From Acidobacteriota bacterium (GTDB lineage: Bacteria > Acidobacteriota > Terriglobia > Terriglobales > Acidobacteriaceae), in assembly GCA_021810175.1 (NCBI GenBank), contig JAJZJJ010000289.1:1-5151 (forward strand): a stretch of 5,151 bases of DNA. The letters run 5' to 3'. The stretch's first letter is position 1, and each line of letters begins with the position of its first letter. The notes below the pieces were generated by a model that did not search any database, was not told the origin of the DNA, and saw nothing but the letters and a program-made list of their open reading frames with translations. Below, piece after piece: positions 1-5,151 of this stretch. The translations under genes were made by a program, and so were the position numbers.

Positions 1-284
1 AACCCGCCTATCCGACAGTCGAGGCCAAGGCCGCCCACCTTCTGTACTTCGTCATCAAGAATCATCCTTTTTCGGATGGCAACAAACGCAGTGCGGCGTT
101 GCTCTTTCTGGACTTTTTGAACCGGAATGGCCGTTTGGTGCGAGAGGATGGAACACTGGTTGTCAATGATGTGGGCCTCGCCGCGTTGGCCCTCCTTGTG
201 GCGGAATCGGACCCCAAAGACAAGGATGTGCTGATCCGCCTGATCATGAATATGTTGGCAGCAAATCTTGCAAATCCAGACTGA
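1..284 (+). CDS. Fic/Doc-family protein, C-terminal part (5' end outside window)
   Basis: This is the last 93 complete codons of a gene entering from the left (frame begins at base 3; stop TGA 282-284). The motif HPFSDGNKR at 63-89 is the Fic/Doc active-site loop: the His acts as general base, and the Gly-Asn-Lys-Arg segment grips the phosphates of the nucleotide co-substrate. Classical Fic AMP-transferases have GNGR here; the Lys is typical of the death-on-curing branch, some of whose members phosphorylate or otherwise modify targets such as EF-Tu. The helix before the loop (VEAKAAHLLYFVIKN) and the tail after it (VAESDPKDKD, then IRLIMNML) recall the C-terminus of the large bacterial proteins that join a RhuM-like N-terminal region to a Fic domain. 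The N-terminus is not visible, so that fusion is inference. It converges on the minus-strand operon. It may be a toxin-type modifier of a host protein; its target cannot be read from sequence. Confidence 0.88.
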   Translation, partial: PAYPTVEAKAAHLLYFVIKNHPFSDGNKRSAALLFLDFLNRNGRLVREDGTLVVNDVGLAALALLVAESDPKDKDVLIRLIMNMLAANLANPD

Positions 285-340: not shown

Positions 341-1624
341 CTATCCTGAGACAGGGGGGTCTCGCTCCATACCCGCTGCAAAAATAGTTAACACCAACTC
401 GCTATCGTCATTCATCCGGTATTCTGGACGCTTGCCCGAGAGAGCTTCGCCGCGAGCAAGGATGATCGAGACTCCTTCGCCGCGCTTATCCATGATGTGG
501 GTGCGATAGCGGGCAAGTTCGTCATCGCCGACGGGGCAGCGTGCGAGCAGGCTTGTCAACGCTTCATTGCGAGCGGCCTGCCGGAAGGGCAGGCTCTCCG
601 GGGTCATGGTGTTGGGCAACATACCCGGCGAATACAGCTCCAGACGGTCGGCAAACAATCGAAGTCGCACCTTGCTGCCCGCCATCGAGTAGTCGCGGTG
701 TGCCACCGCGTTGACCACAGCCTCGAACACGGCGGCTATGTCGTACTGAGGCTTGTCTACCCGCCCCCCGTCGGCACGCTTGAATGCCGCCACCTGCATG
801 TTCTTGCGCACGAAGGCACAGGCCAGGCGAATCTGCTCATCCAGCGGGCCGGTGAGATCCTGGGCGTCGCGTTGATACACCGATTCTCCCGTCGGCACGA
901 TGCCGGTCCCCGCATAGGCGACGGCCTGAATCAACGCGCCGGGCAGATGCCGATGTGGTTCGCGGCTGGCCATCAGCAATCCCGCCACCGTCGGGCGCCA
1001 GACGCCTTGCTCCTCCTGCGCGGCGATGGCCAACTTGCTGAGCAATACTTCTCCCGAATCCGCGCTTCTCGCGGGAACAAAACGCCGCCACAGCGCCTCG
1101 TCCAGATCGGTGAGCGATGCTCGCGGCACGGGCGTTTCGTCAAAACGGATCAGGCGTGACTGACTGCGCTGTTGGAACAGGCGCGCCAGATAGTCCGGGA
1201 GCATGGGTCGCTTCGATGACCCCACGCGATGAAAATATCCCCCGGGGCTCTGATGCACGAACAGACTGCGCGCAACCTCCACGCGCAGCACCGGCAGATC
1301 CGTGCCGGTCGAATCGGGCAGCGTCAGGCGCTCGATGAGCGGCGCCAAGGGCGGTTTCACCGAATCCTCGCAGGCATGCCGCACCCGCGCCTCGACGGCG
1401 TCCAGCTGCTCCAGCGGGATGCCCAGAACTTCGCGCGGCTGGTCTTGCACGCCCAGCAGTAGCACCCCACCCGCGCTGTTGGCGAAGGCCGCGAGTTCGT
1501 CGGCCAGATCCTCCTGCGAAGGACCACGCACCTTGCCGCCGGCAAACCTCACCTCCTTCAGCTCCAGGAAGCTGTCCTCGCCCAGACGAATCTTCTCGAT
1601 CAATTCCGCACGGGTACCCAGCAT
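341..1624 (-). CDS. Schlafen AlbA_2 domain / GHKL-type ATP-binding protein
   Basis: A 427-residue protein, second gene of the operon. Residues about 7-140 form an AlbA_2 (Schlafen-type nucleic-acid-binding) domain, with GEDSFLELKE at 15-24 and the hydrophobic turn AFANSAGGVLLLGVQD at 46-61. E16, E21 and D61 match in order and approximate spacing the E-x4-E...D catalytic set of mammalian Schlafen RNases. Residues about 290-400 form a GHKL-like ATPase fold: EAVVNAVAHRDY at 301-312 (E301 and N305 are the N-box), LYSPGMLP at 330-337, and DKRGEG at 379-384. This architecture is usually annotated as an ATP-binding protein or putative transcriptional regulator of the COG2865 kind. Many such proteins end in a winged helix-turn-helix; this one stops about 30 residues after the ATPase core and shows none. 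The ATG at 1622-1624 is one base past the upstream stop and has GAGAGG six bases before it, so translation is probably coupled. No signal peptide or membrane segment is seen; it should be cytoplasmic. Nuclease activity is inference; a purely regulatory DNA-binding role is the alternative. Confidence 0.9.
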   Translation of the reverse strand: MLGTRAELIEKIRLGEDSFLELKEVRFAGGKVRGPSQEDLADELAAFANSAGGVLLLGVQDQPREVLGIPLEQLDAVEARVRHACEDSVKPPLAPLIERLTLPDSTGTDLPVLRVEVARSLFVHQSPGGYFHRVGSSKRPMLPDYLARLFQQRSQSRLIRFDETPVPRASLTDLDEALWRRFVPARSADSGEVLLSKLAIAAQEEQGVWRPTVAGLLMASREPHRHLPGALIQAVAYAGTGIVPTGESVYQRDAQDLTGPLDEQIRLACAFVRKNMQVAAFKRADGGRVDKPQYDIAAVFEAVVNAVAHRDYSMAGSKVRLRLFADRLELYSPGMLPNTMTPESLPFRQAARNEALTSLLARCPVGDDELARYRTHIMDKRGEGVSIILARGEALSGKRPEYRMNDDSELVLTIFAAGMERDPPVSG

Positions 1625-1625
1625 C

Positions 1626-4427
1626 TCAGACCTCTCTGCCCAGGCGCTTCCAGCGCCGGGAGAAGGCCTCTCGGCCGCCTTCCATTACCCGGCAAACCTC
1701 ATCGCGCACGGCCTTCTCCTGCAACGCGCCACTTTGTGCCACGATACACTGTCCACCCTTGAAATCCATCACATGTACCAGGTCCGCATCGCCATTGACC
1801 ACCACATTGGGGTTGTGGGTGACGACGATCAGTTGTCGGCGCAGCTTGTTCTCGCGGATCTGCTGCACGATCAGGTCGTAGATGAGGTGGTTGTCCAAAT
1901 CGTCCTCGGGCTGGTCAAGCACGATGGGCTCCTCACCGAAGGCGAGCAGGAAGGCCAGCAGCGCCGCCGACCGCTGGCCTTGGGAGCCTTCGCTGATGGC
2001 ATACCACCGACCATCGCGCTGGTATTCGATTTTCAGGTCGTCCTCGGGGAACCATGTCAGCACATGGTCCGCGAATTCTGGCTTGTCGGCCTTTTTCTTC
2101 AGAAAATTTCGGAAATGTCCGCCCAACATTTCGGAAGGCTCGATGAGCCTGTGGCGCACGGCCTCCAGTTTTGCCATCTTGTCTGGCTCGTCGGCTGTTG
2201 CGATGTCGTAGGCCAGCCCCGAGCGAGCCTGGCCATTCTCGCCGGTGAGAATGTCGTCAACGAAGCGTTCGTCTTTCACATCGAGCAAGTCGCGCAGGCT
2301 GCGCTCGATGGCTGTGGAGTCGAATCCGAACGGGATGACACTGATGCGCACATGGGGGTTCTTCTGCAGTTTTTTTGACAGAAAGTCTTGCCGCTGGTGG
2401 GTCATGGCCTGCCTGCGTTGGACAATCAGAGCCTGCTGGGCCTTGTTGTCTGCCTCCAGCCTAGCGCGATCCGTTTGCAACTGCCGCAGTGTCTTCGCCT
2501 GCACCTCCAGTTGCTGGCGTTCTTGGGTCAGGCGGGCGAAGGCCTGCGGGTCGGCCACTCCTTGCGCCGCCAGCTGGGCCTGCAACTGTTGATGCGCTTC
2601 GCGCGCGGGGGCCGTACGAGCCCGCCATGCGGCAAGCCGCGCATCGCCCTCCAACCTGCTCGCTCCCTGCTCCAGCGTGTCGGCTTCCTGCTCCAGTCTC
2701 TGTCGGGCCCGTGCCAGCAGGGCATCCGCATCTGCCCGCCACGCAAGCAGGTCGGTCTCGGTATCTCCGAAATGCTGTGGTAGCCAGTCGTCCAGGAGAA
2801 GTCTCGAGGCGGTTTCTCGCAGCCTTGCCGCCGCGTCGCGCAGCTGTGCCAGAGTTTCCTCCACCGCCCGCGTCTGATGTTGGATGCGGGCATACGCCTG
2901 CTGCACGGCGGCGTGGTCGCCCTGGGCCAGTGCCTTGAGTTTGCGATCCGCTTCCTGCAAGCGCCGTTCGACTTCGGGCAAGGTTGCGAGCTTGCCGTCG
3001 ATCTCTCGCAGCCGCGCCCGCTGGACGAAGAAGGTGCGCGTGGCCTCCTCGAACGCCTGCCGGAATGACTCGACGCCGGCGGCTTCGTCGATGATGGTAA
3101 GCAGGGCCGGCCGCCCGCCGCCCGCCATCGCGGCGATCTGCCCCTGAGAAAACAGGCGGACGGGGAAACGGCTGGGGTTGACGCTCTGGCTGGGCGAGGA
3201 GTGCCACTGGCCGTCGCCCCATTCCTCGACGGAGGTTCCCTGCCCGGTGGCTGACCAGCTCAGGCGAAGTTGCCGCCCTTCATGTTCCCACTCGAGGCGA
3301 ATGGCCGTCTCTGCCTTCAACGCACCTGAGTCGTCACGTCTCGTGGCGATGGTGTTGAAGGCCTCGAAGCGTTCGAGCGGCTCGCTCTCTTTGGGGAGCA
3401 ATTGAATTTCTCCCTCGCGCCGGGTGACCAGCCTGAGCGCGTGCACCACGGTGGACTTGCCTGTGCCGCGACCCCCGACAATGGCATTGAAATAGGGCGA
3501 AAATTCAAGCCGTGCGGCATTGCCGTTTCCCATGAACTGTGCCTTGTCGATCTCGATGCTGCGGATCACATGCGCGGGCGTCTGAAACGGATTGAAGGGC
3601 TCCTCGTCACTGCGTCGCAGCGATACGCCATTGCCGTCCAACAGCGCCAGCCTGAGCCCTTCCAGTGTGGGTTTGGCCATCTTCACCCATGTAAAAGCGC
3701 TGCCAGGTGTCTTGCTGCCCCGAAAATTGTGGCAATCGCTTCCCAACACTCGGGCCAAAGGATTGGCCAGCTTTTCAACGGCTTCCGGATACGGCGTTGC
3801 CGGATCACACCACTCGACGGCGAGCAGCCCCCCCACCTCCAGCGCCTGTTTGACCATGGCCGCCGACAACACGCACTTCCGCGTGCCGGGATTGACGCGC
3901 AGCAACCCCTTGACGGCGTCGGCATGGGCCGGAATCGGGATTGCTCCCACATTCACCTTCAGCACCTCCTCGATGACCTCGACCACCGATCTGCCGGTCT
4001 CGCCGTCGCCGTTGCCCTTGGTGCCGGTGTAGCCTACCGCTCCCAGCAGGCTGTCGATGTCGCCGGTGGCGGCCTGCGGGTTGAAGATCGCCAACATATG
4101 CACGCCGCCGCTGGCCGAAATTTCCACACCTGGAAAGATCGTGATCTCACGAAACCCGGGGGGCAGGTTGCCCGCTTCGGCCTGGGCCATCATCTGCGCG
4201 TAGGCGGCCTTGAGCTTGTCGATCCACCCGCCGCTGTTGTGGTCGGTCACGGCCACGCAGTCGATCTCGGCAGCCATGTAGCGGAGCAGCCACGCCTCTG
4301 GGGTCACTTCGTCGGCCGTGCCGACCGTCGCCTGCCAATGCCCGGTATCCTTCGATGCCGGCGTATGCGTGTGAAAGTCGAACTTCCACCAGCGGGAACC
4401 GGGATAGGTCCAGGATGGATGGGTCAT
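1626..4427 (-). CDS. PHP phosphoesterase-SMC/RecF-like ABC ATPase fusion (TrlF/Ppl-like)
   Basis: A 933-residue protein, first gene of the operon. Residues about 14-265 are a PHP metal-dependent phosphoesterase domain: FDFHTHTP at 16-23 (H19, H21), AVTDHN at 59-64 (H63), FPGVEIS at 98-104 (E102), H110, H168 in PIPAHAD, and GSDCHN at 229-234 (D231, H233). Almost the whole metal-ligand set is present, so this half looks catalytically competent. An ABC-type head follows: Walker A GGRGTGKST at 318-326, Q-loop FSQGQ at 426-430, a charged coiled coil at about 455-690, signature SEGSQGQRSA at 812-821, Walker B IVLDQPED at 835-842 with E841, and switch histidine H871 in THNPN. The coiled coil has no cysteine, so there is no Rad50-type zinc hook. 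The family acts on phosphodiester or nucleotide substrates under ATPase control; a PHP-ATPase protein of this kind (ppl) has been reported as antiphage. The substrate here is unknown. The start is firm: an in-frame TGA lies at 4437-4439, AGGAGG sits 4 bases upstream, and the PHP motif starts at residue 16. No signal peptide or membrane segment is seen. Confidence 0.93.
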   Translation of the reverse strand: MTHPSWTYPGSRWWKFDFHTHTPASKDTGHWQATVGTADEVTPEAWLLRYMAAEIDCVAVTDHNSGGWIDKLKAAYAQMMAQAEAGNLPPGFREITIFPGVEISASGGVHMLAIFNPQAATGDIDSLLGAVGYTGTKGNGDGETGRSVVEVIEEVLKVNVGAIPIPAHADAVKGLLRVNPGTRKCVLSAAMVKQALEVGGLLAVEWCDPATPYPEAVEKLANPLARVLGSDCHNFRGSKTPGSAFTWVKMAKPTLEGLRLALLDGNGVSLRRSDEEPFNPFQTPAHVIRSIEIDKAQFMGNGNAARLEFSPYFNAIVGGRGTGKSTVVHALRLVTRREGEIQLLPKESEPLERFEAFNTIATRRDDSGALKAETAIRLEWEHEGRQLRLSWSATGQGTSVEEWGDGQWHSSPSQSVNPSRFPVRLFSQGQIAAMAGGGRPALLTIIDEAAGVESFRQAFEEATRTFFVQRARLREIDGKLATLPEVERRLQEADRKLKALAQGDHAAVQQAYARIQHQTRAVEETLAQLRDAAARLRETASRLLLDDWLPQHFGDTETDLLAWRADADALLARARQRLEQEADTLEQGASRLEGDARLAAWRARTAPAREAHQQLQAQLAAQGVADPQAFARLTQERQQLEVQAKTLRQLQTDRARLEADNKAQQALIVQRRQAMTHQRQDFLSKKLQKNPHVRISVIPFGFDSTAIERSLRDLLDVKDERFVDDILTGENGQARSGLAYDIATADEPDKMAKLEAVRHRLIEPSEMLGGHFRNFLKKKADKPEFADHVLTWFPEDDLKIEYQRDGRWYAISEGSQGQRSAALLAFLLAFGEEPIVLDQPEDDLDNHLIYDLIVQQIRENKLRRQLIVVTHNPNVVVNGDADLVHVMDFKGGQCIVAQSGALQEKAVRDEVCRVMEGGREAFSRRWKRLGREV
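1631..1636 (-). promoter_or_regulatory. Ribosome binding site of the AlbA_2 gene, inside the upstream CDS
   Basis: GAGAGG on the minus strand lies six bases before the ATG at 1622-1624. It is embedded in the last codons of the PHP-ATPase gene, whose TGA (1626-1628) is separated from this ATG by a single base. The arrangement supports the chosen start and suggests translational coupling by terminating or reinitiating ribosomes. Confidence 0.7.
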
Positions 4428-4431
4428 AAAG

Positions 4432-4437
4432 CCTCCT
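4432..4437 (-). promoter_or_regulatory. Ribosome binding site of the PHP-ATPase gene
   Basis: A consensus AGGAGG on the minus strand lies four bases before the ATG at 4425-4427. The TGA at 4437-4439, in the same frame as the gene, overlaps it, so no longer in-frame start is possible. That TGA also closes the short degenerate frame just upstream. Confidence 0.75.
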
Positions 4438-4439
4438 CA

Positions 4440-4634
4440 AATCGCTAAGCTGGTCTCTGCTCCCCGCCAAGCCGATTGCGGCCGAGCTTTGGTCGTCTCC
4501 GCTCCAGAAGGTGAGCCGTCCTTGCAGGCGCGGGCGTCGTCGGCCCAGCTTTGCCGCCCGCAGAGAGTCCAGAGGCGATGGGCCAGGGTGCGGATGGCGT
4601 CGGGGCGCCCGGGGATGGCGAATCCGGTCGTCAA
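4440..4634 (-). pseudogene. Possible remnant of a DUF1156-type methyltransferase C-terminus, frameshifted
   Basis: On the minus strand one frame reads GRPDAIRTLAHRLWTLCGRQ followed by SWADDARA, ending near 4527. It resembles, from memory, the closing helices of DUF1156-containing DNA methyltransferases (pattern RTLAHRLYTLCER..GWAEDARAYNEL..SW). From about 4518 the continuation fits a different frame, RLTFWSGDDQSSAAIGLAGS then RDQLSDL, which would match the tail of such proteins, so a frameshift near 4516-4526 is likely. The first frame has a TGA at 4644-4646 just upstream and another at 4437-4439; nothing of the catalytic domain is present. It lies immediately upstream of and on the same strand as the PHP-ATPase gene, suggesting an ancestral methyltransferase gene in the same operon. 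The family assignment rests on recall of a short stretch; it could also be a small unrelated frame. Confidence 0.4.
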
Positions 4635-4643
4635 GACAGATTG

Positions 4644-4929
4644 TCAGATCTTATGACTTCTGCAAGCAGATGCTGGAGCACGTCCTCCCCAGTTCGAGGA
4701 GAGAGGTTCTGGCGGCTCTATCCCTCGCGAAGATGTCCCGTTTGGGACCTCCCAGGGAGTCTTGGACCCCAAGGACAGGGGAGGTCTTTTCCGGTCGGAG
4801 AAGGTGAACCGAAACCGGATGCGCTCTCGAGTGTCCTGGGAGATTGATATTCATGGAGGTAAACCTCTTCTCGTACTTGAGGTTTCTCCAGAGTCGCTCG
4901 GTGAAGCTTTTATCGAGAAATCGACCTTT
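4644..4929 (-). pseudogene. Decayed IS3-family transposase (OrfB) C-terminus, spread over three frames
   Basis: On the minus strand, 4929-4870 reads KGRFLDKSFTERLWRNLKYE, close to the IS3-family DDE transposase segment around its catalytic Glu (DN.F.ERLWRSLKYE). The frame then breaks and 4867-4835 reads EVYLHEYQSPR, the next part of the same family pattern. A second break follows, and 4826-4746 continues in the third frame as ERIRFRFTFSDRKRP...LSLGSKTPWEV, matching the family's closing FYN..RPHQSLGY.TPWEVY. That third frame closes at TGA 4644-4646. The order of blocks is correct and only the frame changes, so this is a degraded relic and cannot make active transposase. The upstream half of the enzyme, including the first two catalytic Asp residues, and the terminal inverted repeats are not recognisable here. 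Confidence 0.78.
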
Positions 4930-4943
4930 TTCCTCCTGCTGAT

Positions 4944-4973
4944 CCCGCTTGGCAATGGCCCGCTTGGCAATGG
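4944..4973. repeat. Perfect 15-bp tandem duplication
   Basis: CCCGCTTGGCAATGG occurs twice head to tail at 4944-4958 and 4959-4973 without mismatch. On the minus strand it would encode a repeated AIAKR in a frame that leads into the transposase relic. It lies in non-coding or decayed DNA and probably reflects replication slippage. Confidence 0.85.
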
Positions 4974-4975
4974 AA

Positions 4976-5062
4976 TGGTTCCTCCCCTTCCTTGACGGCT
5001 TCACGGTGGGCCAGAGAGGCGGGTGGTAACCAACCCCTATCACAGAATAAAGGGAGGAACCA
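4976..5062. repeat. 11-bp inverted repeat, arms 65 bases apart
   Basis: TGGTTCCTCCC at 4976-4986 is the exact reverse complement of GGGAGGAACCA at 5052-5062. The right arm contains the ribosome binding site of the gene starting at 5065. The arms could pair in mRNA and mask that site only if transcription began upstream of 4976. They could also be ends of a small mobile or duplicated segment; no target-site duplication was recognised. Confidence 0.55.
5052..5057 (+). promoter_or_regulatory. Ribosome binding site of the right-edge gene
   Basis: GGGAGG lies seven bases before the ATG at 5065-5067, an ideal spacing. It is the main reason for calling the short open frame at the right edge a gene. 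Confidence 0.6.
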
Positions 5063-5064
5063 CC

Positions 5065-5151
5065 ATGAAGATTACCATACCGGGAGTCGAGATCGCCATG
5101 GAATCCTGGGGATCGGGAAACGAAGGGGGAGCGGAGATACTGAGGAGGGGC
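5065..5151 (+). CDS. Unrecognised gene, N-terminal 29 codons only (3' end outside window)
   Basis: An ATG with a strong Shine-Dalgarno sequence opens a frame of 29 codons to the window edge without a stop, beginning MKITIPGVEIAMESWGSGNE. I do not recognise the family. The start has no hydrophobic signal sequence; the visible part is Gly- and Glu-rich. It faces away from the transposase relic and the operon. Given the neighbours, an element-borne gene is possible, but nothing in the 29 residues shows it. The frame is too short for coding statistics; the ribosome binding site is the principal support. Confidence 0.5.
   Translation, partial: MKITIPGVEIAMESWGSGNEGGAEILRRG

Follow-up and report, generated by a model that had tools for sequence, protein, structure and literature searches.

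The window, by which we mean the whole 5,151-nucleotide stretch of DNA analysed here, carries a trlF–trlG gene pair which we read, with slightly better than even confidence, as a mobile two-gene module against phages or mobile elements, in which TrlF would be a Ppl-like DNA sensor and nuclease restraining TrlG, and TrlG a Schlafen-type growth-arresting effector. The pair had at first been regarded as not covered by earlier descriptions; this view has to be given up, since the genes are homologous to trlF–trlG of the trlR-trlF-trlG operon, the Temperature Restricting Locus (TRL) of Photorhabdus laumondii, published in 2020 (PMC7554251, as far as its accessible text goes). The architecture, order and conservation of trlF–trlG (PMC7554251, accessible text), the single-gene system Ppl and bacterial Schlafen effectors are therefore already known. 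To this the present analysis adds how widely the two genes are paired, their co-inheritance, the position of Ppl within the paired clade, the swapping of partners by TrlG and a defence reading of the temperature phenotype. These results link three things that have been described separately, namely a heat-restriction operon, the single-gene anti-phage exonuclease Ppl and the bacterial Schlafen effectors.

Structure of the trlF–trlG pair

The initial annotation described two minus-strand genes one base apart, with the ribosome-binding site of the second inside the first, and products that join PHP to an ATPase and AlbA_2 to a GHKL domain. Both descriptions are borne out, the former by the sequence itself and the latter by the Pfam and NCBIfam models (Table 1).

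Table 1. Features of the trlF–trlG region, in window coordinates.
Feature	Position	Strand	Product or content	Basis
trlF	1626..4427	minus	933 aa	NCBIfam NF045780, 619 bits (cut-off 350)
TrlF parts			PHP nuclease domain, ~aa 1-280; SMC/Rad50-type ATPase head split by coiled coil, ~aa 285-925	
trlG	341..1624	minus	427 aa	Pfam SLFN_AlbA_2 + HATPase_c_4
TrlG parts			Schlafen AlbA_2 domain, aa 16-141; GHKL ATPase domain, aa 316-412	Pfam
trlF/trlG junction	1622..1636	minus	trlF stop, one base, trlG ATG	Read from sequence
trlG ribosome-binding site		minus	GAGAGG, inside trlF	Sequence
TrlG codons 16-61	1442..1579	minus	Putative Schlafen carboxylate triad E16, E21, D61	SLFN13 alignment
RhuM–Fic gene, 3' end	3..284	plus	Convergent with trlG; neighbour outside the pair	Pfam, PADLOC candidates

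TrlF of the window aligns with positions 2-944 of the 944 in NF045780 and belongs to the TrlF family by this model. Against the Ppl model NF042955 the whole protein scores 520.7 bits, below the cut-off of 1000, and so it is not classed as Ppl there; PADLOC 2023 matched it as Ppl with 442 bits. The PHP metal ligands are intact (H19, H21, D62, H63, E102, H168, D231 and H233), as are the ABC/SMC ATPase motifs GGRGTGKS, SQGQ, LDQPEDD and THN. Among 95 TrlF–TrlG pairs, the Walker A lysine and the Walker B D/E are kept in all 95, and the ten PHP positions counted are kept in 86-95, except H233 (74/95). The predicted model of TrlF (pLDDT 87) has structural matches to EndoQ, Smc and Rad50, and the best chains in a Foldseek search came from Wadjet JetABC structures; the 11 sequences of solved structures matched by TrlF at E<=0.1 include none named Ppl. 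Separately, frames of ~630-690 aa (in G314, G326, G373, G397, G413, G449, G461 and G473) match the ATPase part of the TrlF model alone (profile ~285-944), apparently without a PHP domain.

TrlG carries an AlbA_2 domain and is in this sense a Schlafen-type protein. Its E16, E21 and D61 align with E205, E210 and D248 of rat SLFN13, numbered by our own reading of chain 5yd0, in which we take the residue numbers to be shifted by 13 throughout; the accessible part of the SLFN13 study (PMC5862951) describes E205 and E210 as pivotal for cleavage and D248 as also important. The triad is invariant in all 13 aligned window-type TrlGs, the window's own included. Over the 95 pairs, E16, K23, E301, N305 and HRD 309-311 are kept without exception, E21 in 86 and D61 in 78, the latter being absent from 17. 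The predicted model of TrlG (pLDDT 80) matches DIP2311, SLFN11/13/14 and histidine-kinase ATPases, and its best match in PADLOC 2023 is a long pAgo model (65 bits).

The plasmid-borne relatives L117 and L118 are called TRL-type here from matching residue numbers of the published mutations, rather than from comparison with the Photorhabdus sequence itself. Such TRL-type relatives have Gln as the second residue of the triad (pattern E/Q/D or N), so that classic RNase chemistry cannot be general: either TRL-type TrlG arrests growth without the classic triad, or its chemistry differs. Judged by its residues, window-type TrlG, in which the full triad is kept, would be the better candidate for the predicted RNase activity.

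Frequency of pairing

A TrlG-like frame lies directly downstream, on the same strand, of 70 of the 80 nearest TrlFs and is missing from the other 10; the set comprises the best 80 of 473 relatives, and its counts lean to close relatives. In four of the 70 (L013, L032, L051 and L069) the TrlG frame is disrupted, shortened or truncated where the contig ends, and in L013, L032 and L051 a broken or shortened TrlG stands behind an apparently full-length TrlF. In the Pseudomonadota, the phylum of Methylococcus, 28 of 398 genomes hold at least 33 TrlF matches over the cut-off, 23 of them paired with TrlG (including locus L141, which has no TrlF gene call and was entered as paired from coordinates). 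In the window's own phylum, at least 21 such TrlFs occur in 17 of 295 genomes, of which 12 are paired, one is weak and eight are unpaired. Both scans undercount copies, at most two candidates for TrlF and four for TrlG having been scored per genome; combined, they give 35 paired TrlFs out of 54 family members. The same-strand adjacency anticipated by the initial annotation is thus common, both among close relatives and in the phylum samples. Meanwhile, 40 control stretches from TrlF-carrying genomes (640 kb, 649 called genes) contained no TrlG-like frame. The two genes are separated by exactly one base in 37 of 99 pairs, and their spacing lies between -25 and +10 in 89 of the 99. The genomes of ten unpaired TrlFs were searched as well, and no TrlG was found in them at E<=1e-15.

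Seen from the other gene, at least 35 TrlG matches (E<=1e-25) are present in the 398 Pseudomonadota genomes, 23 beside a TrlF match and 12 apart from one; the 23 include that of G465, whose TrlF is cut by the contig end and falls below the cut-off. Fifteen of the TrlGs share 49% identity or more with that of the window, and 12 of these 15 stand beside TrlF. We considered that the 12 lone TrlGs might adjoin a TrlF that had escaped scoring and rejected this, as no TrlF-like frame (E<=1e-5) occurs in the surrounding 6-16 kb; the check took in G469, G569, G680 and nine others, and in G571 the contig extends ~870 bases before TrlG. Since 12 of 35 TrlGs have no adjoining TrlF, the control of TrlG cannot depend on TrlF everywhere.

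Some loci depart from the two-gene form. A second, diverged AlbA_2-like frame follows TrlG at L062:14094-15341 and L073:14130-15377 (71 and 79 bits), possibly a three-gene variant, and the acidobacterial draft genome (MAG) of L062, G306, has eight TrlG matches. L004, a contig of 5.5 kb assigned to an acidobacterial MAG, carries a 99% identical TrlF together with its TrlG, probably through a binning error.

Phylogeny of TrlF and co-inheritance with TrlG

A FastTree phylogeny of 133 TrlFs, from which proteins below 780 aa were left out and whose sample leans to close relatives, separates a clade of 118 (100 paired, 17 unpaired and one weak) from a clade of 15 (14 unpaired and one weak). Most proteins of the clade of 15 are longer (917-1039 aa), and several members begin with a GSxWRKWD-type motif. 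The pairwise distances of TrlF and TrlG are strongly correlated over 95 of the 100 pairs, those with TrlG of at least 330 aa (Mantel r=0.963; 0 of 2000 permutations, the top permuted value being 0.26), and the correlation is still 0.86 within TrlF distances of 0.3-0.65. The two genes therefore descend together. The coupled unit first proposed is accordingly real, widespread and co-inherited, with a TrlF close to the anti-phage Ppl. TrlG can no longer be called an obligate partner, however, since the deep clade to which the window belongs has 17 TrlFs out of 118 with no partner, and three annotated Ppls likewise stand alone.

An IQ-TREE phylogeny of 62 rows, for which four members of the unpaired clade served as the root, recovers a starred clade of 58, which splits into a TRL-type half (13/13 paired) and the window's half (29/45 paired). 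Three plasmid-borne annotated Ppls fall inside the window's half in a starred placement, and none of the three fetched sequences has a TrlG behind it. Their placement near the paired L138 and L142 depends on a fork of 87% that is not starred, and with the long branches of Ppl and L144 the exact sister group of Ppl is unsure. No Ppl over the cut-off was present in the 398 Pseudomonadota genomes, and the plasmid Ppls were used instead. On the simplest reading, the common ancestor of the two halves already had the TrlG partner, which later disappeared in Ppl and, on several occasions, in other lineages; alternatively, it could have been gained independently.

Genomic setting and mobility

Aligned without gaps, the window and contig L002 disagree at 17 of 5151 positions, so that the window stems from a close relative and not from that assembly itself. 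The contig that holds the pair is 23 kb long, and its other genes, read by eye, are ordinary chromosomal ones; in gene content the phylum resembles that of Leptospirillum and Nitrospira. A 12.4-kb stretch of this contig that holds the pair (7697-20125) is missing from the syntenic place in the sibling species G037, which was used for comparison; the contig of the nearest sibling, G089, ends before this stretch. A search for direct repeats flanking the stretch found no 12-mer shared between its two ends. Within the genus, TrlF over the cut-off is present in two of 14 genomes and TrlG likewise in two of 14, absences being soft, as completeness is 72% for this genome and most of the related ones are drafts. 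The TrlG of the other same-genus carrier is 63% identical to that of the window, and the TrlG of Methylococcus 88%; the GC content of the pair is 63%, versus 58% in the first 13 kb of the contig. Taken together, the missing stretch, the patchy occurrence in the genus, the TrlG identities and the GC content fit a recent transfer. On the minus strand, the frame 4651-5043, which has no Pfam match, presumably holds the end of an IS3-like transposase, judged by eye from the motif SFTERLWRNLKYE.

Relatives of TrlF were found on 1141 plasmid records, 844 of them predicted to be conjugative, and 127 records cover at least 80% of the query. Among records filed as 'phages', none of the seven TrlF matches reached 80% query cover, and TrlG was matched in 18, every one below 60% identity. 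A rare partner or a mainly housekeeping context had been named as a reason to abandon the defence proposal; instead, the partner is common, the distribution patchy and the location often a plasmid.

Restriction genes accompany several relatives. In Escherichia coli, 38 of 5426 complete genomes carry TrlF–TrlG DNA nearly identical to that of L117, with 52 of 55 places being chromosomal; this DNA adjoins type I restriction genes, restriction subunits being present in all ten places among the matches listed. A helicase and an N-6 methylase precede TrlF on an IncF plasmid of E. coli, and on the IncC plasmid pNDM-KN a TRL-type pair lies between type I restriction genes and adjoins a Tn7-like transposition gene. 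TrlG also occurs without TrlF at L274:4686-13330 (G569), in the order SNF2 helicase (DrmD-like), TrlG, type III methylase and type III restriction enzyme; this TrlG is 50% identical to the window's, and G680 has a similar arrangement, judged by eye. Conversely, three unpaired TrlFs (L015 of Moorella, L023 and L036) follow a protein of 673-676 aa and precede one of 495-529 aa, which in L015 are HsdM and a type I specificity subunit by Pfam. In these three loci, from Bacillota and Campylobacterota, TrlF without TrlG thus appears between type I restriction-type genes.

At least two type I restriction genes lie within 10 kb of four of 79 paired loci, six of 24 unpaired ones and none of 31 controls. 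The idea that type I restriction constantly accompanies the pair was therefore rejected, such genes being commoner near unpaired TrlFs, and for the pair itself the case for a defence island is weak. PADLOC matched 321 families among 115 pair neighbours (of 216 eligible) versus 121 among 115 control genes (of 451 eligible), counting families and not proteins, which is suggestive at most of an enrichment of the pair near known defence genes. The RhuM–Fic neighbour in the window (355 aa, L002:18572-19639) has the status of a phage-defence candidate only (PDC-S23, PDC-S05).

Possible function of the pair

If the pair is a defence module, TrlF would resemble Ppl in that its SMC/Rad50-type NTPase would recognise DNA, probably at ends, and its PHP nuclease would degrade it. 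TrlG would be a second-tier, growth-arresting effector, in which a GHKL ATPase would act as the switch of a putative RNase domain of Schlafen type. In an uninfected cell TrlF would keep TrlG off; when invading DNA engages TrlF, or when TrlF fails, TrlG would be released and translation stopped. The growth arrest that depends on TrlG is taken from the literature on a homologue and the anti-phage activity from that on the relative Ppl; we infer the defence role, the RNase activity of TrlG, the restraint by TrlF and the trigger. In the literature searched, no TrlF–TrlG pair had been challenged with phages, and no paper named the pair a defence system.

The genetics of the TRL operon bear on the roles of the two proteins. 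According to the accessible text of the TRL paper (PMC7554251), a shift to higher temperature induces the operon, which limits growth at 36 C. Most of the sequenced Photorhabdus clones growing at 36 C carried trlG mutations, two IS insertions included, and none is reported there in trlF, though trlF is the much larger gene; tolerant clones without a trlG mutation failed to regrow after freezing, and two had fur or spoT changes (PMC7554251, accessible text). The operon could be deleted, and the arrest returned when it was re-added (PMC7554251, accessible text). With the 16 different trlG alleles counted in Table 1 of the accessible text, the chance of finding no trlF allele is about 5 in 10^9, given the gene lengths of L118 and on the assumption that all alleles arose independently and that the two genes mutate equally readily. 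If TrlG needed TrlF, or if TrlF were the effector, trlF escape mutants would be expected, and the accessible text has none. Escape mutations confined to trlG thus point to TrlG as the growth-arresting part, with TrlF either dispensable for the arrest or restraining it. Of 11 published trlG missense sites in that text, mapped through L118 with an assumed shift of one residue, six fall in the Schlafen domain and four in the GHKL domain, and S18, A46, P337 and N353 of the window's TrlG are identical to mutated TRL residues.

The restrainer step is weakened by the view of the TRL authors, who favour a TrlF that either takes no part in the arrest or yields to an overriding TrlG, and who argue from the viable deletion of the whole operon that loss of trlF is not overtly harmful (PMC7554251, accessible text). 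Nothing in the accessible text of that paper directly supports the step. The whole-operon deletion removes trlG as well, however, and is therefore no test of the restrainer model.

The roles might also be reversed, TrlF being the effector nuclease and TrlG a sensor or regulator whose AlbA_2 domain binds nucleic acid and whose GHKL domain reports the nucleotide state. The loss of the second triad residue in TRL-type TrlG, the naming of TrlG relatives by several sources as predicted HTH transcriptional regulators or DNA-binding proteins, and the example of Ppl, in which a TrlF-like protein is an effector alone, all agree with such a division. We nevertheless consider it unlikely, because TrlG as a mere activator predicts trlF escape mutants, of which the accessible TRL text (PMC7554251) has none, because all 13 window-type TrlGs keep the whole triad, and because TrlG is also part of a type III restriction operon that lacks TrlF.

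Instead of serving in defence, the pair might regulate the response to stress or temperature, as the accessible TRL text proposed for Photorhabdus. This would account directly for the induction by temperature upshift and the restricted growth at 36 C (PMC7554251), but appears improbable: the patchiness within the genus (2/14), the conjugative plasmids, the embedding in restriction operons and the anti-phage relative are all unlike a core stress regulator. Least probable of all is that two defence genes merely travel together and act singly, as the solitary TrlFs (17/118) and TrlGs (12/35) might suggest, for this is at odds with the constant order, strand and near-overlap (89/99), the correlated distances (r=0.963) and the absence of TrlG from all ten searched genomes of unpaired TrlFs.

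We thus retain the reading of TrlF–TrlG as a defence module with TrlG as the effector. A broader scenario may be put forward more tentatively, and we hold it to be possible rather than probable: TrlF–TrlG would be the ancestral immune form and Ppl a descendant without the Schlafen partner, TrlG would be a portable Schlafen–GHKL effector that joins now TrlF, now a restriction operon, now a BREX-like core, and the temperature restriction of Photorhabdus would be autoimmunity that arises when heat breaks the restraint by TrlF. If the defence reading is true, many proteins annotated as 'TrlF family AAA-like ATPase', together with an adjoining 'RNA-binding domain-containing protein', would constitute a two-tier DNA-plus-RNA immune system.

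Comparison with known systems

The TRL operon shares with the window both domain architectures (TrlG being AlbA_2 + HATPase_c_4) and the order of trlF next to trlG, the two genes overlapping by 19 bases in the TRL-type relatives L117 and L118. In L117 and L118, however, TrlG is ~30% and TrlF ~23% identical to the window's, and the second triad position is Gln. The TRL operon has a small upstream regulator gene, trlR; none was recognised in the window, where the frame 4651-5151 had no Pfam match and a 65-aa ORF at 4437-4634 lay outside that scan. Moreover, the published role of TRL is temperature restriction, whereas the window's pair is read as defence.

Ppl (NF042955) has the PHP + SMC-like NTPase architecture in common with the window's TrlF, to which the annotated plasmid Ppls are ~33% identical. 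It is an anti-phage ssDNA 3'-5' exonuclease that is freed from NTP inhibition upon nucleotide depletion by the phage, and it depends on 3'-OH ends that homing endonucleases of the phage generate (PMC12904381, accessible text). Ppl acts alone, and a TrlF-like protein can therefore defend without TrlG. Unlike this single-gene system, TrlF of the window has TrlG one base downstream. The likeness of TrlF to Wadjet JetABCD lies in the ATPase head and coiled coil, but in TrlF the nuclease is part of the same chain as the ATPase.

TrlG can be compared with the Schlafen RNases SLFN11/13/14 and with the bacterial Schlafen–histidine-kinase effectors (PMC12839542, accessible text), bacterial Schlafen RNases being described there as back-up effectors in BREX-type systems. 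TrlG would be a putative RNase whose partner is TrlF, and whereas SLFN13 has two lobes, TrlG has one AlbA_2 domain per chain.
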